NCBI RefSeq assembly: GCF_000686945.1
Contig: NZ_KK366040.1
Location: 124,001 to 188,000 of the forward strand
Direction of reading: 5' to 3'
Source: Selenomonas sp. AE3005
GTDB taxonomy: Bacteria; Bacillota; Negativicutes; Selenomonadales; Selenomonadaceae
DNA: 64,000 bases
Below the pieces are notes generated by a model. The model was not told where the DNA came from and did no database searches. It worked only from the letters and a program-made list of their open reading frames with translations. The translations under genes and the position numbers were made by a program. Shown here piece by piece: positions 2,528-63,225 of this stretch. Each line of letters opens with the position of its first letter. Position 1 is the stretch's first letter.

Positions 2528-2558
2528 AAAAACCAGTCCCTCTGTGGACTGGTTTTTT
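2528..2558 (+). terminator. Rho-independent terminator after the nucleotidase gene
   Basis: A 9-bp perfect stem (AACCAGTCC with GGACTGGTT) around a short loop is followed by six T residues, 15 bases after the stop codon. Confidence 0.9.
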
Positions 2559-2574
2559 GCATTGAAAATACCAT

Positions 2575-3175
2575 TTGCAGTTTGATGGTTAGTGCCTGCT
2601 TACTTTTAGTTGTTACAGCTCAGTTGGGTGGAGGTGGTAATACTTTTCGCTGTTGCACTGAATGACCCACCAGCAAAAGTTTGGACTTTTCCAGCTACAT
2701 GCGCCGGCAAGCAGTCGGCGCGATTGTTCAGCTCAGTGTCCAGGGGCTGTTGTTTGTGGGCCAGTCCTCACTGCGTTCGGACAGTCGTTCCACTGCGAAA
2801 AGCATCACCACCTCCGCCCTAAGTGACGTCCGTGTAAAATGAATATTTCGCAGTGACAGGTAACAGGCACATCGATGTTCTTGTAACGGGAGCAACGAGT
2901 TCGTAGCAATTGTATAGGCCGTTTGTAGGGGCGAACGGGGGAGTGATTTTTATGCGGGGAGCGACTGCCTGAGCGCAGCGAAGGCCGGCACACTGTAGAC
3001 AATCGCTAAGCAACTACGCTGAAAGGAGCGCCGTTGGCCTGCCCGGCGCAGGTTACTTGACAGTGCTATTTTCCGAGGTGTGTCGTTTAGCGGAGGCAGA
3101 AAAATTACTCCCCCGTGACCCCCATGCACGCATGGACAGGATAATTTTAAGAACTCGTTGACCGTCAAACTGCAA
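2575..3175 (+). repeat. 600-bp interspersed repeat 'A', copy 1 (intact)
   Basis: First of three copies (others at 14612-15211, inverted, and 32812-34902, interrupted by an IS). The ends are imperfect terminal inverted repeats: TTGCAGTTTGATGGTTA on the left, and on the right the complement of TTGCAGTTTGACGGTCAA. Inside are two modules, 2626-2819 and 2928-3123, each closed by its own inverted repeat (GGTGGAGGTGGTAATACTTT against AAAGCATCACCACCTCC; CGGGGGAGTGATTTTTAT against AAAAATTACTCCCCCG). The modules look like diverged, oppositely oriented versions of one another. No convincing protein is encoded. It fills almost the whole gap between the nucleotidase gene and sbcD. The empty insertion target used by the IS in copy 3 lies around 2966-2980. 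Confidence 0.85.
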
Positions 3176-3287: not shown

Positions 3288-4442
3288 ATGAGATTTTTTC
3301 ACCTATCAGATTTGCATATTGGTTTAAAACTCGTAAACCATGACCTGAAGGAGGACCAGGCTTTCATTCTCCGGCAAATCGCAGACCAGGCAGCCCAGCG
3401 CCAGCCGGACGCCGTAGTCATCGCCGGCGATATTTATGATAAAGCTATTCCTGCCGCCGAGGCTGTAGCACTATTTGACGATTTTATTACGCAGCTGCGC
3501 AACGCCCTGCCCCAGGGGGAAATCATGCTCATATCAGGCAACCATGACAGTGCCCAGCGCGTAGACCTGTTCCGCCAGGTACTGGCTCGCCACAAAATTC
3601 ACCTTATCGGCCTGCCGCCCCGGCTCCCGGAAGAATACATCACCCAGGTCACCCTCACCGATTCATTTGGCCCCGTAAATTTCTACCTGCTGCCATTTGT
3701 CAAACCCTCCATGGTCAAAGAAATTACCGGCACTGACGCTAAGGGCAACAATCTCTCTTATGACGAGGCTGTGCACGCCCTGCTGTCACGGGAAAACATC
3801 GATACTGACCAGCGCAACGTCCTCGTCAGCCATCAGTTTTATCTCTCCACTGCCGGCCAGGACATCGTCCGCAGTGATTCCGAAAGCATAACCGTAGGCA
3901 ATATTGACTCCGTAAACGGCGATATTCTGGAACTGTTTGACTATGCAGCGCTGGGACATATCCATAAGCCCCAACGCCTCAACGGTCAGGATTGTTACCG
4001 CTATTGCGGCACGCCCCTGGCCTGCTCCATCAGTGAGGCCGAACAGGAAAAAGGCATTATCGAAGTGGAACTGAGCGCTAAGGGCGAAGTAAACACCACG
4101 GTTCTGCCCCTCACGCCCCTGCATGCCGTACGCAAAATTCAGGATACCCTGGAAAATGTGCTGGCCTCCCCCTCCACAGATTATGTCAGCATCACCCTGA
4201 CAGACGAAGATGATTTAGACATCTTTGATATGCATGACCGGTTGAGCGCAGCTTTTCCCAACTTGCTGGAAATCCGGCGTGCCGTCAAACAGAAAGTGAA
4301 TTATGAGGGCGCTGACATACCGCAGGAGCAGCTTTCACCCTTTGAGCTATGTAAGACCTTCCTTGGGGAGTTAGAGGACGCTGACGAGGCTCTCCTTGCC
4401 GATATCATCAATACGGTACAAGACAAGCGCACGGAGGCATGA
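3288..4442 (+). CDS. sbcD: Exonuclease SbcCD subunit D
   Basis: Nuclease subunit of the SbcCD (Mre11-Rad50-like) complex, which cleaves hairpins and processes blocked double-strand ends. The 384-residue protein has the Mre11-type phosphoesterase motifs in order: DLHIG (8-12), GDIYD (~47), GNHDS (~84) and GHIHKP (~223), the residues that bind two Mn ions. The start is fixed by CTAAGGAGG 8 bases ahead of the ATG. The stop codon overlaps the first possible start of sbcC, giving a tightly coupled two-gene operon in subunit order D then C. Given the long palindromic repeats in this window, a hairpin nuclease is relevant to their stability, though that link is inference. Confidence 0.97.
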   Translation: MRFFHLSDLHIGLKLVNHDLKEDQAFILRQIADQAAQRQPDAVVIAGDIYDKAIPAAEAVALFDDFITQLRNALPQGEIMLISGNHDSAQRVDLFRQVLARHKIHLIGLPPRLPEEYITQVTLTDSFGPVNFYLLPFVKPSMVKEITGTDAKGNNLSYDEAVHALLSRENIDTDQRNVLVSHQFYLSTAGQDIVRSDSESITVGNIDSVNGDILELFDYAALGHIHKPQRLNGQDCYRYCGTPLACSISEAEQEKGIIEVELSAKGEVNTTVLPLTPLHAVRKIQDTLENVLASPSTDYVSITLTDEDDLDIFDMHDRLSAAFPNLLEIRRAVKQKVNYEGADIPQEQLSPFELCKTFLGELEDADEALLADIINTVQDKRTEA

Positions 4443-4444
4443 CC

Positions 4445-7400
4445 ATGAAACCACGCAAACTTACGCTGCAGGCCTTTGGCTCCTACGGCCAGAAAACTGA
4501 CATTGACTTTTCCCTGCCCCAGCAGAATTTATTTCTGATTACCGGCGATACCGGCGCAGGAAAAACTACCATTTTCGACGCTCTGGTCTTTGCCCTCTAT
4601 GGCGAAAACAGCTCCAATACCAACAAAAAAGCCAGCACCGACATGCAAAGCCAATACATTGGCCGCGATGTAACCCCCTTTGTGGAACTCACTTTCAGTG
4701 AACAGGAAGATGGGCAAGACCGCTGCTATACAGTACGCCGCGTCCCCCATCATTTTCGCAAGCGGCTGCGCGGCCAGGGCGATGATATTGAGGCGCGCGA
4801 GGAATTAACCTTCACCATGCCGGACGGCAGTAATTATAACGGCAAAATTGGCGAAATAAACACCAAACTGCAGGAAATCATCGGCCTGACCAAGGAACAA
4901 TTCATGCAGGTGGGCATGATTGCCCAGGGCGAGTTTATGGAACTCCTGCGTCTGGAATCAACCAAGAAAAAAGAAATCTTCCGCCGTCTGTTCGCTACGG
5001 AAATTTTTGACCGCATCGTGAATGAACTGAAATCTCGTAATGCGGCCACACAGGAAGAAATGAAACGCCTTATGCAGCGCTGTCAGGGTGTTATCGAAGG
5101 TCTGGCAGCCGAGTCCGACGCTGAATTACAGGCCCTTAAACTCCGGCTCAGCCAGACAAAGGACATAAGCATAGTAGATATTGAAGAACTGCAGGCCCGG
5201 CTTGAGCCTTTCTGTGCAGAATTAAAGGCGCAGGCGGCTGCTATCAGCCAGGAATACACGCAGGCCACAGCCCTGCGGGATAAGCACCAACAGGCCTATA
5301 CCGCGGCGTTATCCCTCGTTGCTGCCTACAAGGAACTCGATAATATCACCGTTAAGGAAACAGAACTTGCCAGCCAAAAAACAGCGCTGACCCAAAAAGC
5401 CCAGTTAGGGCAGGCGATAAACACCGCCTGTAAAATAGATTCCCTGTATCAACGCTGGCAGGAAAAACTAAAAACCCTCCAACAGCTGCTCGCCCAGCAA
5501 AAACAGCAGACAGCCGTTTTACCCAAACTGAAAAACGCCGAAGAAACGGCCTGCCAAAAGCGTGAGCAGCTGCAAGCCGCCCAACAGGCAGCCCTGCAAA
5601 CCTACAGTGCCCAGGAAACAAAAGTAACGGCGGCCATGCAAATGCTGGGCCAGCAAAAGGACCTGCAAAAGCAGGAAAAGCAAATGCAAAAGCAGGTACA
5701 GTCAGCCCTGGAACGCCTGACAGCTGCCAGACAGCAGGAAACAGCATTTGCCCAGCAAGTAACCGACTGGCAAAAACGCAAAGACGCCATGCATGATGCC
5801 GGGCAGAAATTAGAACAAAGCCATAACCAAGCGGAACGCCTGGAAAGCTGGCAGGCTGACACCCGGCGCTTAGCGGCTCTGGAAGATAATATTGCCCAAG
5901 CCCGGCAGGCCACTGAACAGGCGCAAAAGGCCTATCAGCAGGCGCAAGCCGCTTACGCCACGGCGCAAAACACCTACACTGTTCAGCAAAAACTGTTTCT
6001 CGATGCTCAGGCCGGGTTGCTGGCTGAAACCCTGCAGGACGGCGAGCCCTGCCCGGTCTGCGGTGCCACCGTTCATCCTGCCCCCCACATTCTCGCAGAA
6101 CAGGCCAAACCCCTGGAACGAGCAGAACTGCAAAAACTGTCCCAGCAGGTTACAGAGTTGAACCAAAAACAAAACCGTCTGGCAGAGCAAGCCGGCCAAG
6201 CCAGCACTAATTTGCAAAACTGCCAGCAGCAGCTCAGTGACGGTCTGCAGCGGCTTTGTCAAAGCCTGGCCGAATTCATGCCCCTGCCTGAAAATCCGGC
6301 TTTAACTGATATAACGCCACAACTCAGCAAATGGGAGTCCCTGCTCCGGCAAAAACGCACCAATCTGGAAAAACAAGCGGACGAATTGAAAAAGATTCAA
6401 AATCAGCTGGCCCAAAGCGATGCCCAGTCTGTCAAACTCAAAGACAGCGTATCTGCTGCCGAACAGGATTATCATCAGGCTGACAGCCAGTTAAAGAACC
6501 TGCAGGGCCAGCAAAAAACCTTGAATGCCCAGTGCCCTTATGAAAGTGAAACCGCCGCACAAGCCGCCTTAGCTGCGGCCAAAGCCCAACTTATGGCCGC
6601 ACAAACCAGCACCCAGCAGGCAGAAACAGCGGCCGCCACAGCAGCGGCCGCCCGGCAGCAGGCTGAAACCCTGTTAAAGGACGCAGAGGCTAAAATCCCC
6701 GGCCTTACTACAGAAACAGAGTCTGCCCACAAAGAATATCAAAACATTTGTACCGCCCTTAACATGAGTGAAAACATCTGGCAGCCATTAGTACACGATT
6801 ATACGGCTGCGGACAGTGAGCGCCTGCTGCAGGAAGTACAAACATACAAGGACACAGTCAACAACCTGCAAGGGCGCAAGCAGGCACAAATCACATTCAT
6901 CGACAGCCGTCCCCGTCCTAATCTTACGGAACTCAAAGAACAGCAGGAACAGGCCCATGCCGCCTGGCAGGAACTATCGCAAAAATTACAAAACTGTCAG
7001 CACATGCTTTCCACCAATGAAAAAGTCGCCGGCGTCCTGCATACTGCCCTCGCCGCCCGTACTGACAAGCTATTGAGTGCTGCCCGTCTGGATAATCTCT
7101 ACAACCGTTTATCCGGCAAGATTTCCGGGTATCGCATGGACATTGAAACCTTTGTGCAGCGCCGCTACCTGACGCAGATTCTGCTTGCTGCCAACCGGCG
7201 TTTCTCCGAAATGACAGCCGGGCAATTTGAGCTGCGCCTTATCCCCATAACCGATGCCGGACAAGGACGCAACCGCGGCCTGGACCTGATGGTGTATTCC
7301 ACCGTTACCGGCAATGTGCGGGATATCAAAACACTCTCTGGCGGTGAATCATTTATGGCAGCCTTATCACTAGCCTTAGGCCTATCTGACCAAATTCAGG

Positions 7401-7627
7401 TGAGCACTGCTGCCATCAATCTCGACATTATGTTCATTGACGAGGGTTTCGGCTCTCTTGATGACCACTCCCGCAACCAGGCCATCAAAGTCCTCAAGCG
7501 CCTTTCCAGCGGCGACAAACTGATTGGCATTATCTCCCATGTAACCGAATTAAAACAGGAAATAGACAACCAGCTCATCGTGCGCAAAGACGACAAAGGC
7601 AGTCATGCCGTATGGCAAATAAGCTAA
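4445..7627 (+). CDS. sbcC: Exonuclease SbcCD subunit C (SMC-like ATPase)
   Basis: ATPase subunit of SbcCD, 1060 residues from this start. The Walker A motif GDTGAGKTT lies near residues 33-41, followed by a very long Gln/Ala-rich coiled coil, a zinc hook CPVC at ~536-539 that dimerises two molecules, a second coiled coil, the ABC signature LSGGES (~963) and Walker B DEGFGSLD (~999). An ATG at 4439 overlaps the sbcD stop but sits one base from the GGAGG at 4433-4437; the ATG at 4445 has ideal 7-base spacing and is preferred. Length and domain order are typical of the family. Confidence 0.96.
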   Translation: MKPRKLTLQAFGSYGQKTDIDFSLPQQNLFLITGDTGAGKTTIFDALVFALYGENSSNTNKKASTDMQSQYIGRDVTPFVELTFSEQEDGQDRCYTVRRVPHHFRKRLRGQGDDIEAREELTFTMPDGSNYNGKIGEINTKLQEIIGLTKEQFMQVGMIAQGEFMELLRLESTKKKEIFRRLFATEIFDRIVNELKSRNAATQEEMKRLMQRCQGVIEGLAAESDAELQALKLRLSQTKDISIVDIEELQARLEPFCAELKAQAAAISQEYTQATALRDKHQQAYTAALSLVAAYKELDNITVKETELASQKTALTQKAQLGQAINTACKIDSLYQRWQEKLKTLQQLLAQQKQQTAVLPKLKNAEETACQKREQLQAAQQAALQTYSAQETKVTAAMQMLGQQKDLQKQEKQMQKQVQSALERLTAARQQETAFAQQVTDWQKRKDAMHDAGQKLEQSHNQAERLESWQADTRRLAALEDNIAQARQATEQAQKAYQQAQAAYATAQNTYTVQQKLFLDAQAGLLAETLQDGEPCPVCGATVHPAPHILAEQAKPLERAELQKLSQQVTELNQKQNRLAEQAGQASTNLQNCQQQLSDGLQRLCQSLAEFMPLPENPALTDITPQLSKWESLLRQKRTNLEKQADELKKIQNQLAQSDAQSVKLKDSVSAAEQDYHQADSQLKNLQGQQKTLNAQCPYESETAAQAALAAAKAQLMAAQTSTQQAETAAATAAAARQQAETLLKDAEAKIPGLTTETESAHKEYQNICTALNMSENIWQPLVHDYTAADSERLLQEVQTYKDTVNNLQGRKQAQITFIDSRPRPNLTELKEQQEQAHAAWQELSQKLQNCQHMLSTNEKVAGVLHTALAARTDKLLSAARLDNLYNRLSGKISGYRMDIETFVQRRYLTQILLAANRRFSEMTAGQFELRLIPITDAGQGRNRGLDLMVYSTVTGNVRDIKTLSGGESFMAALSLALGLSDQIQVSTAAINLDIMFIDEGFGSLDDHSRNQAIKVLKRLSSGDKLIGIISHVTELKQEIDNQLIVRKDDKGSHAVWQIS

Positions 7628-10383: not shown

Positions 10384-11517
10384 TTACTTTATACAGATAA
10401 TATGCTGTATAATACGGCATAACAGCTCATAACGGGGAATGATGGTATCTATTTCCAAATACTCATTTTCACTATGGGCACCGCCGCCCACCGGCCCCAG
10501 GCCGTCGATGGTCGGCGTGCCGGCAGCAGCGGCAAAACTGCCATCAGAACCGCCGCCGCTGGCCATCCAGCCAAATTCCACACCGATTTCCTGACCGATA
10601 TCGTCAATACTGCGGCAAAGGGCCATGGTTTTTTCCGAGGGGAGCATCGGCGGTCTGGTGATGCCGCCCTCCACCTCAGCCAACGTTCCCTCCACATGCG
10701 GATGGGCTTGCAGGCTGTTCATTATCCCTGCTACACGTTCGCTTTCTGCAGCGTCATAGTAGCGCACATCCACCGCAGCTCCGGCTTGTCCCGGTACAGC
10801 ACTGATACCCGTGCCGCCCCACACCTTCCCCACATTTACAGTTGTTTCCTTGCTGAGGTCCGTGGCGGCCTGCAGGGCAATAATCCAATGTGCCAGTTCC
10901 TCAACAGCATTTCGCCCCGCCTGGTAGTCAACACCAGCATGTGCCGCTACACCTTTAATATTTATATGATACCTGGCTATCCCTTTGCGTTTATAAACCA
11001 GATTTCCATTAGCCCGGCCGGCCTCTAAGGCCAGTACATAACGACTCTTTCTGGCTAAATTCGTAGAATAAGCCGCCGAATACCGCGAGCTTATTCCTTC
11101 GTGGTCACTGTTCAGAAACACACATACGGCAGCATCAGCCAGCGCCCCTCTTTCCTGCAGGTTGGCCAACGCATAAAAACCACTTAACAGGCCAGCCTTG
11201 CAGTCAATAACACCTGGCCCATAGGCGCGGTTTCCCTCTATTCTAAAGGGACGTTTTGCCGCGGTTCCCAACGGAAAAACCGTATCCATGTGCGCCAGCA
11301 GCAGTACATCGTATTTTTCTGCCTCCCTGTTGACAATCCGCAGGCAAGGCCCGATAGACGGTGCCAGGCTGACCTCTTCCACCAGCCAGCCCAGGGATTT
11401 ATACTTATCCTTCATAAAAGCAGCAATTTTGCCAGCGCCCTCCGGTTCCGAGGATACGCTGTCAATATTGACCAGCCTGGCCAGCTCGTCCAGAAAACGC
11501 TGTTTATCCAGCTCCAT
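10384..11517 (-). CDS. M20-family metallopeptidase (glutamate carboxypeptidase-like)
   Basis: A 377-residue cytoplasmic hydrolase of the M20 family, which splits dipeptides or N-acyl amino acids with two zinc ions. Metal-ligand motifs HMDT (H76, D78) and GVIDCKAG (D105) are present, as is the dimerisation domain (AGVDYQAGRNAVEEL) and the C-terminal GGGSDGSFAA and GGGAHSENE segments. Where the family normally has a paired Glu (catalytic base plus ligand), this protein reads SDHEG at ~137-141, putting His in the base position. The ATG at 11517 is nine bases after AGGAGG; an upstream TTG is too close. First gene of the operon with the DcuC-type transporter and porin, and divergent from a LysR gene. 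Confidence 0.85.
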   Translation of the reverse strand: MELDKQRFLDELARLVNIDSVSSEPEGAGKIAAFMKDKYKSLGWLVEEVSLAPSIGPCLRIVNREAEKYDVLLLAHMDTVFPLGTAAKRPFRIEGNRAYGPGVIDCKAGLLSGFYALANLQERGALADAAVCVFLNSDHEGISSRYSAAYSTNLARKSRYVLALEAGRANGNLVYKRKGIARYHINIKGVAAHAGVDYQAGRNAVEELAHWIIALQAATDLSKETTVNVGKVWGGTGISAVPGQAGAAVDVRYYDAAESERVAGIMNSLQAHPHVEGTLAEVEGGITRPPMLPSEKTMALCRSIDDIGQEIGVEFGWMASGGGSDGSFAAAAGTPTIDGLGPVGGGAHSENEYLEIDTIIPRYELLCRIIQHIICIK

Positions 11518-13650: not shown

Positions 13651-13791
13651 TTATAACGCCGTTGTTCCAGTTTTGCCATAGGCAAAACTTCCTCTTGGCG
13701 TTTCAACGAGGCGGGAGATATGCTCGCCGCCTGTTTTGGTATTCGTGCCCCCACCTGCTGAGGTGGGGGACATTTTCTTGCCTCGTTATAA
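13651..13791. repeat. TTATAA-bounded repeat 'B', copy 1
   Basis: A 141-bp unit starting and ending in TTATAA. It contains the hairpin GTTTTGCC-ATA-GGCAAAAC, a GAGGCGG/CCGCCTG pair and the hairpin CCCCCACCTGCTGAGGTGGGGG. It is nearly identical to 63047-63187 (a single difference noted by eye, in GTATTCGTGCC/GTATTCATGCC), and a shorter relative is at 37414. It lies between convergent genes. Confidence 0.85.
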
Positions 13792-14611: not shown

Positions 14612-15211
14612 TTGCAGTTTGACAGTTAAGTAGTTCTTAAAAGTATCCCGTTAATACGTGCATGGGGTTCACGGGGGAGTAATTTTTCTGCCTCCGCTGA
14701 ACGACACACCTCGGAAAATAGCACTGTCCAGTTACCTGCGCCGGGCAGGCCAACGGCGCTCCTTTCAGCGTAGTTGCTTAGCGATTGACTACAGTGTGCC
14801 GGCCTTCGCTGCGCTCAGGCAGTCGCTCCCCGCATAAAAATCACTCCCCCGTTCGCCCCCAGCAACGCTATTTACAATTGTCACGGATTCGTTGCTCCTG
14901 TTACAAGAACATCGATGTGCTTGTTCCCTGTCACTGAGAAAAAGACGTTTTATATTGACGTTGCTTAGGGCGGAGGTGGTGATGCTTTTCGCAGTGGAAC
15001 GACCGTCCGAACGCAGTGAGGACTGGCCCACAAACAACAGTCCCTGGACACTGTGCTGAACAATCGCGCCGACTGCTTGCCGGCGCATGTAGCTAGAAAA
15101 ACAATATTTTTGCTGGTGGGTCATTTAGTGCAACAGCGAAAAGTATTACCACCTCCACCCGACTGAGCTGTAACAAATAAAAATAAGCACGCATTGACCG
15201 TCAAACTGCAA
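14612..15211 (-). repeat. 600-bp interspersed repeat 'A', copy 2 (inverted)
   Basis: Full-length copy in the opposite orientation to copies 1 and 3, with the same TTGCAGTTTGAC...GTCAAACTGCAA ends and both internal inverted modules. It occupies most of the 850-base gap between the racemase and preA-like genes. The uninterrupted IS target is present around 14808-14820. No credible coding region is seen. Confidence 0.85.
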
Positions 15212-30677: not shown

Positions 30678-30776
30678 AGTTGATGCCGTGCAACTGACGG
30701 AAGTGGATAACCACAGGGAGCACGGGGAAGATAAGCCGACCGTCTGGGTGAACACCTGGATTTGTGTCGGCTTTTT
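30678..30776 (+). ncRNA. ZTP (pfl) riboswitch with expression-platform terminator
   Basis: The leader contains the pfl-motif elements in order: GCCGTGCAACTGACGGAAGTGG, split here as GCCGTGCAACTGACGG and AAGTGGATAACCAC, then AGGGAGCACGG, a linker, and the pseudoknot strand CCGTCTGGG (consensus CCGCCUGGGC). A terminator stem AAGCCGAC/GTCGGCTT followed by TTT overlaps the pseudoknot strand, so ligand binding can prevent termination. ZTP riboswitches sense the folate-stress alarmone ZTP/ZMP and turn on purine or one-carbon genes; the gene downstream consumes ZMP (AICAR), which fits. The remaining sequence of the 364-base gap is the pfkA upstream region. Confidence 0.93.
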
Positions 30777-32717: not shown

Positions 32718-33313
32718 TTTCCCACCTCTATTCACAGCCATATTATCCTGCTCATGTATTTTATGTATTCTCCATCAGTGGCAAATATCCTTTTCCCTCA
32801 CATGAGGAAAATTGCAGTTTGACGCTCAGTGCCTGCCTTATTTTATTTGTTACAGCGCAGTCGGGTGGAGGTGGTAATACTTTTCGCTGTTCCACTAAAT
32901 GTCCCACCAGCAAACGATTGAGCTTTTTAGCGACCTTGCGCCGGGCAGGCCAGCGGCGCGTATGTTCATCTCATTTTCCAGTAACTGTTGTTTGTGGGCC
33001 AGTCCTCACTGCGTTCGGACAGTCGTTCCACTGCGAAAAGCATCACCACCTCCGCCCTAAGCAACGCCCGTATAAAATGATTCTCTCGCAGTGACAGGGT
33101 ACAAGTACATCGATGTTCTTGTAACGGGAGCAACGGGTTCGTAGCAATTGTAAATACCTTAGCTGGGGGCGAACGGGGGAGTGATTTTTATGCGGGGAGC
33201 GACTGCCTGAGATAATATGTAGTGACCTCCAATTGCAAGCATCGTGGATTTACCTGTATGATACAAATATAACCAAATCAACAGGATTTACCGCATACAA
33301 ATGGAGGTCACTT

Positions 33314-34429
33314 ATGAAAAGTATAGTATATGTCGGGATGGATGTCCACTCTTCAAATTACACGCTTTCCTGCTACATGGTAGAAAATGACAGATGCTTT
33401 GCAACAGTTCAGATAGAGCCAGACTATATGGAAATCTTGAAGTATCTTGCCAAAGTTCAGGAAAACATCGGTGAACCATGTGAATTTCGCTGTGGCTATG
33501 AGGCTGGCTGTTTGGGGTATAGCCTTTACCATCAACTGACAGACCATGGTGTGGACTGCACTATCCTTGCGCCAACAACTATGCCCATTTATAAGAAAAA
33601 TGAAATCAAGACGGATAAACGTGATGCAATGAAAATTGCACGCTGTCTCGCATTCAACACATATCGTGCGGTATATATCCCCACCAAGGAAGATTCTAAT
33701 ACGAAAGAATATATCCGCATGAGAGATGCTCATAAACGTGCCTTAAAAACGGTAAAGCAGCAAATTACGGCATTCTGCCTGCGTTACGATTTTCGCTACA
33801 CAGGTGGCAAAACTTATTGGACATTGAAGCATATTGCTTGGCTGAGAAGCCTTGAAATGGATGCTTTAATGCGCGAGATATTGGACGAATATATCCAAAC
33901 CTACCAGAGCCTTATGAACAAGCTGGAAAGATTTGACAGAAGAATCGAAGAACTCGCTGGTGGAACTTCGTATGCTGACAAGGTGAAGAAACTTTCCAGC
34001 TTGATTGGTATACGTACACATACCGCGCTGGCATTAGTGGTAGAAAGCGGTGACTTTGCGCGCTTTGCAAAAGCAAACCAGTACGCAGCCTTTCTAGGTC
34101 TTGTCCCCGGGGAGAAATCCAGTGGTGAAAAGCAAAATCGTACAAGTATAACAAAGGCAGGAAATAGTCATCTGAGAAGATTGTTGACTGAAGCCGCACA
34201 ATGTTACGGACGGGGACGCATAGGCTATAAATCAAAAGCCCTAAAAGCACGTCAATACGGCAATACGACAGAAACGATAGGATATGCAGATAAAGCCAAT
34301 GAGCGTTTGAGAAGAAAATATTACCACATGGTTTTGAAAAATAATAAGAAGCATAACGTAGCCGTAACAGCAGTGGCACGAGAATTGGCTTGCTTTATCT
34401 GGGGGATGATGACAGAACATATCGCCTGA
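33314..34429 (+). CDS. IS110-family (IS1111 group) transposase
   Basis: A 371-residue DEDD-type recombinase. The N-terminal RuvC-like DEDD domain starts YVGMDVHSSNYTLSCY with the first catalytic Asp, has the Glu in CGYEAGCLGYSLY and Asp residues in IKTDKRDAMKIAR; a long helical part leads to the C-terminal transposase_20 domain (SLIGIRTHTALALVVESGDF, then FLGLVPGEKSSGEK and TKAGNSHLRRLLTEAA), with the conserved Ser candidate in KAGNS. These enzymes act with a bridge RNA rather than cutting by a DDE mechanism. GGAGG is 6 bases before the ATG. The reading frame is full length, so the element may be active. Confidence 0.95.
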   Translation: MKSIVYVGMDVHSSNYTLSCYMVENDRCFATVQIEPDYMEILKYLAKVQENIGEPCEFRCGYEAGCLGYSLYHQLTDHGVDCTILAPTTMPIYKKNEIKTDKRDAMKIARCLAFNTYRAVYIPTKEDSNTKEYIRMRDAHKRALKTVKQQITAFCLRYDFRYTGGKTYWTLKHIAWLRSLEMDALMREILDEYIQTYQSLMNKLERFDRRIEELAGGTSYADKVKKLSSLIGIRTHTALALVVESGDFARFAKANQYAAFLGLVPGEKSSGEKQNRTSITKAGNSHLRRLLTEAAQCYGRGRIGYKSKALKARQYGNTTETIGYADKANERLRRKYYHMVLKNNKKHNVAVTAVARELACFIWGMMTEHIA

Positions 34430-34439
34430 CTAAAGTAAT

Positions 34440-34680
34440 TTATAAACTGCTGAAAGGTATCTTGAAAAGACTTTGGCATAGCTGAGCAATGTTTAGTGAT
34501 CTACGACTGCGCTGAGTTGACACAATGAAATGTGATTCACGATCTGAGATAGTAGCACTTACGGCGAAACCATTACACTGAGGTAACCAATCCACGTATA
34601 ACAGAGTGGCAATGCCGGGAACTATGTTATCTAAGGTCTTTTCAAAATGCCTTTTGGCAGAGATAGAAATCGGTGCTTGA
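34440..34680 (+). ncRNA. Predicted bridge RNA (seekRNA) of the IS
   Basis: Noncoding tail downstream of the transposase, where IS1111 elements encode their guide RNA. A long-range stem TTGAAAAGACTT (34462-34473) pairs with AAGGTCTTTTCAA (34633-34645, one bulge) and encloses two guide regions. Target guides: CTGAGC (34482-34487) equals the target's left side, CTGCGCT (34507-34513) is complementary to its right side AGCGCAG. Donor guides: ATAACAGA (34598-34605), in the loop of a CCAC/GTGG hairpin, equals the element's right end plus core, and TTATCT (34627-34632) is complementary to core plus left end AGATAA. All four include the AG core. Exact RNA ends are not known; matches are 6-8 bases. Confidence 0.75.
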
Positions 34681-34910
34681 CAAAGGTCACTACATAACAG
34701 CGCAGCGAAGGCCGGCACACTGTAGTACGCAGCTAAGCAACTACGCTGAAAGTAGCGCCGTTGGCCTGCCCAGCGCAGGTAACTGGACAGTGCTATTTTG
34801 CTAGGTGTGCCGTTCAGCGGAGGCAGAAAAATCACTCCCCCGTGAACCCCATGCATGTATTAACGGGATACTTTTAAGAACTACTTAACCGTCAAACTGC
34901 AATTTAACAA

Positions 34911-37413: not shown

Positions 37414-37478
37414 TTATAACGCAGTTGTTCCAGTTTTGCCATAGGCAAAACTTCATATTGGCAGTTCGCCATTATATA
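37414..37478. repeat. Repeat 'B', short variant
   Basis: Starts TTATAACGCAGTTGTTCCAG and contains the GTTTTGCCATAGGCAAAAC hairpin seen in the two long copies, but ends after about 60 bases at a TTATA sequence. The internal hairpins of the longer copies are missing. Confidence 0.75.
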
Positions 37479-63046: not shown

Positions 63047-63225
63047 TTATAACGCCGTTGTTCCAGTTTTGCCATAGGCAAAACTTCCTCTTGGCGTTTC
63101 AACGAGGCGGGAGATATGCTCGCCGCCTGTTTTGGTATTCATGCCCCCACCTGCTGAGGTGGGGGACATTTTCTTGCCTCGTTATAACGCGGAAGAAGAT
63201 ATCTTCCGCCTCGTTGGCGTTATAA
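63047..63225. repeat. TTATAA-bounded repeat 'B', copy 2, with an added unit
   Basis: 63047-63187 repeats the 141-base copy at 13651 almost exactly. It is extended by a short palindromic unit (CGCGGAAGAAGATATCTTCCGCCTCG) that runs to another TTATAA at 63220-63225. The gap 63016-63328 otherwise contains only AT-rich sequence. Confidence 0.85.

Follow-up and report, generated by a model that had tools for sequence, protein, structure and literature searches.

A palindromic repeat found between the genes of Selenomonas sp. AE3005, in three copies within the 64 000-nucleotide stretch of DNA analyzed here as a whole (the window), consists of two homologous modules with a conserved fold that is kept by compensatory changes in Selenomonas and in other genera of Selenomonadaceae. 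The copies within one genome recombine, and their sequence follows the species group rather than the site. Rather than the remains of a known transposon, it seems to be a folded repeat of a new kind. It is probably an old, non-autonomous palindromic element that encodes a putative structured RNA and would be homogenized by ectopic recombination blind to orientation.

Copies and architecture of the element

The three copies in the window sit where the original prediction had placed them. Copy 1 (2575..3175, plus strand, 601 bp) opens with a terminal inverted repeat at 2575..2594 (plus) and closes with its counterpart at 3156..3175 (minus), followed by TTTA. Copy 2 (14612..15211, minus strand) is 600 bp long. 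Copy 3 (plus strand) is split by an IS110-family insertion (33212..34698, plus) into a left part of 400 bp (32812..33211, positions 1–399 of copy 1) and a right part of 204 bp (34699..34902, positions 398–601 of copy 1) that overlap by 2 bases, so that the copy measures 602 bp once the IS is removed. Identity to copy 1 is 90.4% for copy 2, and 86.5% and 88.0% for the parts of copy 3. The inserted IS110 element has a transposase ORF at 33233–34429 with the Pfam domains DEDD_Tnp_IS110 and Transposase_20.

Each element holds two modules that face outward from its centre. In copy 1, M1 (2624..2822, minus strand, 182.4 bits with the covariance model described below) and M2 (2926..3124, plus strand, 193.7 bits) flank the centre (2823..2925), the core of which is ACATCGATGT; in copy 2, M1 lies at 14965..15162 (plus, 184.9 bits) and M2 at 14663..14861 (minus, 193.5 bits); in copy 3, M1 is intact (32861..33060, minus, 196.5 bits), and the IS is lodged within the P2 hairpin of M2, the rest of which is in the right part and which still scores 88 bits. 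A single covariance model thus matches all six modules, one per strand per element, as expected if the two are homologous and oppositely oriented, which is how they had originally been described. Compared with its own complement, the whole element aligns at 60.5% identity over 618 columns (E 5e-26).

The ends shared by the copies in the window are indeed TTGCAGTTTGA(C/T), and palindromic conserved bases extend ~4–6 nt beyond the ends first assigned (TnTAAA/TTGCAG...CTGCAA/TTTA, with slashes at those ends); the outer TnTAAA flanks most AE3005 copies and is not seen at the left end of copy 1. Consistent with the earlier observation, no clear target-site duplication is found: among 23 copies, junction repeats are at most 4 nt without slack, and with 0–6 nt of slack the mean longest repeat is 3.5 nt, a slight excess over the 2.9 nt (sd 0.28) of shuffled controls. 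As to the claim that no protein is encoded, there is no ORF of at least 100 amino acids over copy 1; copy 2 overlaps a 111 amino acid ORF with no counterpart among the ORFs listed for copy 1. Terminal inverted repeats are present and conserved coding capacity is absent, as in MITEs.

In the AE3005 assembly as a whole (2.82 Mb, 25 contigs), 51 BLAST matches resolve into 36 copies and one 37-bp remnant (L038), and the 23 full-length copies are on average 88% identical to each other (range 83–93%). One module is mostly or wholly missing from six of the 36 copies (M1 in three, M2 in three). Longer variants of 727–736 bp (L085, L087 and L185) occur as well, and one AE3005 locus (L028/L029) is a 924-bp composite of two incomplete copies. 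Two relatives, G010 and G011, have 33 and 36 places, respectively, fragments included. The copies lie between genes (33–36 copies in each of the three genomes counted).

A BLAST search with copy 1, limited to the best few candidates per genome, finds matches in 15 of the 22 genomes of the genus and in none of the 38 others; those in relatives are 66–84% identical to the query. In a pattern scan of named genomes, the matches listed (80 of 109 stretches) are all from Selenomonas ruminantium, and the single plasmid match, a partial one covering 40% of the query, is to S. ruminantium pSR1; by these sequence matches, the element is placed in Selenomonas. None was found in phages or, with a single exact pattern, in viral contigs. 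The sequence type of the element tracks the species group, and G010 and G011 copies are equally alike between and within the two genomes (86%). No description of the element was found in the open-access literature; PMC8632094, in the part available, names other motifs of these orders.

A conserved fold and its probable strand

Modules M1 (minus strand) and M2 (plus strand) align as one family of 49 modules. In the 49 Selenomonas modules aligned with MAFFT, RNAalifold predicts 31 pairs, 18 of which have changed on both sides. A covariance model built from the Selenomonas module alignment and searched in 380 Negativicutes genomes (best six candidates per genome) matches 27 of them at E ≤0.01, including nine outside the genus. 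Strong, full-length matches (E 2e-25 to 1.5e-12) occur in six of these nine genomes, which represent three other genera of Selenomonadaceae; the remainder comprise a moderate match (5e-8) and two weak ones, of which one spans 93 nt and lies in another family. Among the loci fetched, there is one module in each of L373–L375 and L378–L380, two that face outward in L376, and three in L377.

The compensatory changes in the module stems by which the structure was to be judged are abundant across genera: in an alignment of 19 cross-genus modules that was fitted to the structure (A3), 26 of the 31 pairs have changed on both sides, and 95.6% of the cells are paired, compared with 71% in shuffled and 37–46% in slid controls. 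The unpaired stretches of the module are strongly conserved as well. Because conservation follows base pairs and loops, the modules are not decayed pieces of a transposase gene, the outcome named at the outset as fatal to the prediction. Among 28 AE3005 copies, the minor-base fraction is 0.6–1.7% in the stems, P2 and P4, and 11–21% in the variable segments, ends and centre; this low variation of the fold across so many copies implies a constraint that acts genome-wide, beyond one master copy. A uniform rate would leave ~52 of the 602 columns invariant in the AE3005 copies, and 329 are. The longest stretch of invariant columns, 19, falls within the permutation extreme of 22 (mean 9.7).

An unbiased scan of the variable segments detects no further strongly covarying helix, and a pattern test for hairpins within them matched only 38 of 224 modules and pointed neither way. 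Nor is there a sign of a bridge-RNA-like guide for the element's own site: in 28, 27 and 26 copies of three genomes, the variable segments match their own flanks about as well as the flanks of other copies (largest excess in longest match, 8.15 versus 7.73).

Like the families of Rfam 15, the module combines a covarying multi-helix fold, conserved unpaired stretches and G-U wobbles; unlike them, it occurs in tens of copies as an inverted pair and has no match at the gathering score, either in the copies of the window or in 11 loci, and therefore does not belong to a known RNA family. Around copy 1, a scan with E up to 10 gives only five sub-threshold matches. For RNA biologists, the module is a new family, a sizeable covarying fold absent from Rfam.

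The wobble pairs favor the outward strand, on which G-U predominates as it does in RNA. Read outward, alignment A1 contains 110 G-U versus 22 A-C cells, which are not independent, as 103 of the 110 G-U cells fall in three columns; A3 contains 26 versus 4, and its nine rows from outside model building (L373–L380, with two of the genomes belonging to the genus) contain 7 versus 0. The outward strand is also the more stable one in four overlapping sets (43 of 49, 13 of 19, 99 of 112 M1 and 107 of 112 M2 modules), the opposite strand folding better in six of the 19 modules of A3. Both marks of a structured RNA, covariation beyond controls and strand asymmetry of the wobbles, are accordingly found, and the suggestion of a structured-RNA element stands with respect to the fold (covariation, G-U bias and stability), as a prediction. 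The module is a structured nucleic acid, most probably an RNA that reads outward from the centre; more tentatively, the modules may be transcribed and bound as RNA. A promoter scan of copy 1 is at the chance level (one found, 0.7 expected).

The M1 stem contradicts the outward reading: once its two fixed wobbles are set aside, it has 59 G-T versus 35 A-C cells on the plus strand. Such an excess would fit an element that acts as DNA, with hairpins that matter as a cruciform or as a gyrase, nucleoid or SbcCD site, and not as functional RNA, and so would the near-palindromic architecture, the position beside terminators and the loss of a whole module from some copies. The compensatory changes, too, could arise by DNA hairpin correction. 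Nevertheless, a purely DNA-level role is quite improbable in our estimate, given the preference for G-U over A-C on the outward strand, the greater stability of this strand and the strong conservation of the unpaired stretches.

Terminator-side sites and the turnover of their occupants

The element mostly lies beside a terminator-like hairpin. In front of copy 1, such a hairpin (2528..2557, plus strand) is located 3' of a 5'-nucleotidase gene, 17 nt ahead of the element; on the other side, sbcD-sbcC follow directly downstream (3288–7627). A terminator-like hairpin is found within 70 bp of 28 of the 36 AE3005 copies, always on one side only, compared with two of 36 at a distance of 200–270 bp; the corresponding numbers of hairpin-flanked copies are 18 of 30 in G010, 17 of 28 in G011, 16 of 23 in G003 and 11 of 22 elsewhere, with hairpins on both sides at three loci in the sets outside AE3005. 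In AE3005, G003, G010 and G011, 78 of the 94 flank hairpins end 0–14 nt from the element, and 48 of the 94 have a GTTGAC, GCTGAC, GCTGGC or GTTGGC stem. A strict terminator pattern has 21 matches at 17 places in the AE3005 genome, 10 of which are beside an element or its remnant. Of the seven GTTGAC-type places without an element, one (L327) looks like a chance match; the others might be vacated or potential sites. Group IIC introns also insert behind terminators, and the element resembles them in following terminator hairpins directly; it differs in having symmetrical ends, in occurring in either orientation and in the absence of any intron match in the Rfam scans.

Comparison of related genomes reveals long-lived sites with changing occupants. 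Altogether, 21 sites of G011 match G010 on both flanks, with eight elements flipped, and more sites are shared with partial copies; in most of the pairs displayed, the junctions are at the same place or within a few nucleotides. Turnover was assessed in 20 pairs, leaving out L185/L107 (flipped; too long at 733 bp) and L166 (which matches three G010 loci) and including L162/L105, matched on one flank only. At seven of the 20 sites, the occupant is retained (closest of 30, 91–98% identical, none flipped), and at the other 13, it is another member of the family (not the closest, 82–92% identical, seven flipped), the range for random, non-orthologous pairs being 80–90%; since G010 and G011 share one sequence type, the call rests on modest differences, and as G011 is a 20-contig assembly, some of the flips or swaps could be assembly errors. 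The concentration of flips among the replaced occupants (seven of 13, versus none of the seven retained) has a Fisher p of 0.044 two-sided and 0.022 one-sided, in a small test. In four pairs (L182/L116, L183/L123, L161/L108 and L174/L120), one end is kept while the other differs, a mosaic expected of gene conversion.

Six pairs of AE3005 and relatives' copies at four sites matched on both flanks are 74–81% identical, with flanks at 77–91%, which is less than the mean identity among the AE3005 copies themselves. In nine AE3005-relative pairs, mostly matched on one flank, the ortholog is not the closest of 34 copies in eight cases; the two pairs with both flanks rank 23 (L007/L057) and 1 (L023/L041). 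Within AE3005, linkage between variable positions drops from an r2 of 0.53 under 10 nt to at most 0.05 beyond 60 nt (permutation p <0.002), and 488 of the 630 pairs of sites are incompatible by the four-gamete test; the decay in G010 and G011 is similar, though weak.

One could ascribe the flips at shared sites, with their junctions kept, and the symmetrical ends to a dedicated site-specific recombinase that acts on the terminal repeats, inverting the element as a cassette and exchanging it between sites. This is highly improbable: the flipped occupants are other family members and not flipped orthologs, L126/L178 have opposite orientations though neither shows the TTGCAG ends, in some pairs one end is preserved and the other changed, and linkage decays within ~60 nt as it does in gene conversion.

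Among the 11 species in which a long stretch of flank matches, nine have an element at the L007 site, in one orientation or the other and in several cases visible only in part; the site is empty in G010 and G011, whose terminator is different as well. Four genomes have an element at the L118 site, and another four lack one. A clean empty site was not found at L118, L157, L007 or the site of copy 1 (G017 only): in the empty alleles that were aligned or read, the stretch adjacent to the junction differs as well, including the terminator, which leaves no example of a clean insertion and would be compatible with movement of a larger unit. Copy L157, present in G011 only, suggests that terminator and element might be moved or replaced jointly; the G010 allele of this site (L336, ~11200–11370) carries another palindromic repeat, CCTTCCCCTCTAGGGGAAGG.

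The inverted ends, the little coding capacity, the proximity to terminator-like hairpins and the filled and empty alleles of L118 would all be accounted for by a large MITE, mobilized in trans by a transposase that prefers sites behind terminators, with the shared sites inherited vertically or being hot spots, and the sequence types resulting from repeated bursts. Like bacterial MITEs, the element has inverted ends, codes for little or nothing, and occurs between genes in tens of copies; it departs from them in the lack of a target duplication, in an internal covarying fold common to several genera and in the exchange of occupants in place. Moreover, it seems unlikely that 13 of the 20 shared sites were each filled anew by an independent insertion, and no parent transposon, with matching ends and a transposase, was seen in the AE3005 genome, where a 12-base end scan has 72 matches (33 with a control pattern), 48 of them at known copies; of the 24 stray ones, the nine that were inspected do not continue as the element, and the other 15 are single-mismatch. 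As no target duplication was found, nor a parent among the end matches inspected in AE3005, the element is not shown to be a MITE, and an origin of its present distribution as one is unlikely. Of the alternative name given at the start, non-autonomous transposon, the first half is supported within the AE3005 genome; ‘transposon' describes the present behavior poorly, because the sites are common to species and the occupants are exchanged in place.

Mobilization by a RAYT was rejected, as the Y1 transposase is not consistently present among the 22 genomes of the genus. There is no Y1 match in six of the 15 element-carrying genomes (G001, G002, G005, which is 86% complete, G010, G011 and G017), and that of AE3005 is a fragment only (positions 76–121 of 121, with a stop); the element is absent from the 20 Y1 loci fetched, and a GTAG or CGTC tag at one end, sought by eye, is not consistent.

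Resemblance to extragenic palindromes and a possible mode of persistence

The closest parallels are among the REP/BIME repeats, which are, according to the available part of PMC3733652, extragenic, palindromic, often paired in opposite orientation, located 3' of genes and plausibly transcribed; insofar as this account goes, the element is like them in being extragenic and palindromic, with modules paired in opposite orientation 3' of genes. REPs are also targets of IS110-family insertions (PMC1525189, likewise in the part available). Unlike the 20–40 bp palindromes of REP/BIME, the modules are ~195 nt long with several helices, and unlike REP/BIME with a RAYT, six of the 15 carriers have no Y1 match, so that on size and transposase the element is not a REP/BIME. 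It may best be viewed as a new variant of palindromic intergenic repeat with a new structured module, which would work like a paired, RNA-forming extragenic palindrome.

The ectopic recombination that we favor would proceed as follows. Once folded into a hairpin or cruciform, the palindrome would be cut, for example, by SbcCD, a nuclease of hairpins whose genes adjoin copy 1, and the break would be repaired from another copy of the element. The broken ends are inverted copies of one another, and repair could therefore proceed in either orientation, which would lead to concerted evolution and to flipping at fixed sites, with insertion at new sites now rare. Transcription and binding of the modules as RNA would hold the variability of their core to about a tenth of that in other parts of the element. 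The shared sites, the genome-wide likeness of the copies, the mosaic ends and the orientation-blind replacement all fit such repair, because broken ends can pair with either donor arm. SbcCD is the obvious candidate for cutting a palindrome; the location of sbcD-sbcC next to copy 1 may be a coincidence.

A bolder generalization, which we put forward as possible and rather doubtful, is that Selenomonadaceae possess a class of multi-copy RNA-coding palindromes that persist less by transposition than by provoking their own repair, the fold being broken at long-lived terminator-side sites that are refilled from any copy in either orientation. If true, this would amount to a gene-conversion drive by which non-coding RNA genes, dozens of them, stay alike inside one genome and yet diverge from one species group to the next. 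For rRNA genes, the concerted evolution of dispersed copies is a familiar phenomenon; to our knowledge, reports of it for non-coding repeats of bacteria, dozens at a time, are scarce, and the literature found on it deals mainly with organelles and eukaryotes. In this family, the persistence of the sites through exchanges and flips of their occupants makes it possible to distinguish replacement from transposition at each locus.

The window contains two further features of note. A second repeat family is represented by two 141-nt copies that are 99% identical (13651–13791 and 63047–63187) and a third of 54 nt (37414–37467); it includes the palindrome GTTTTGCCATAGGCAAAAC, and a similar sequence is present in L325. 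A ZMP/ZTP riboswitch is located at 30680–30756 (RF01750, 51.3 bits).
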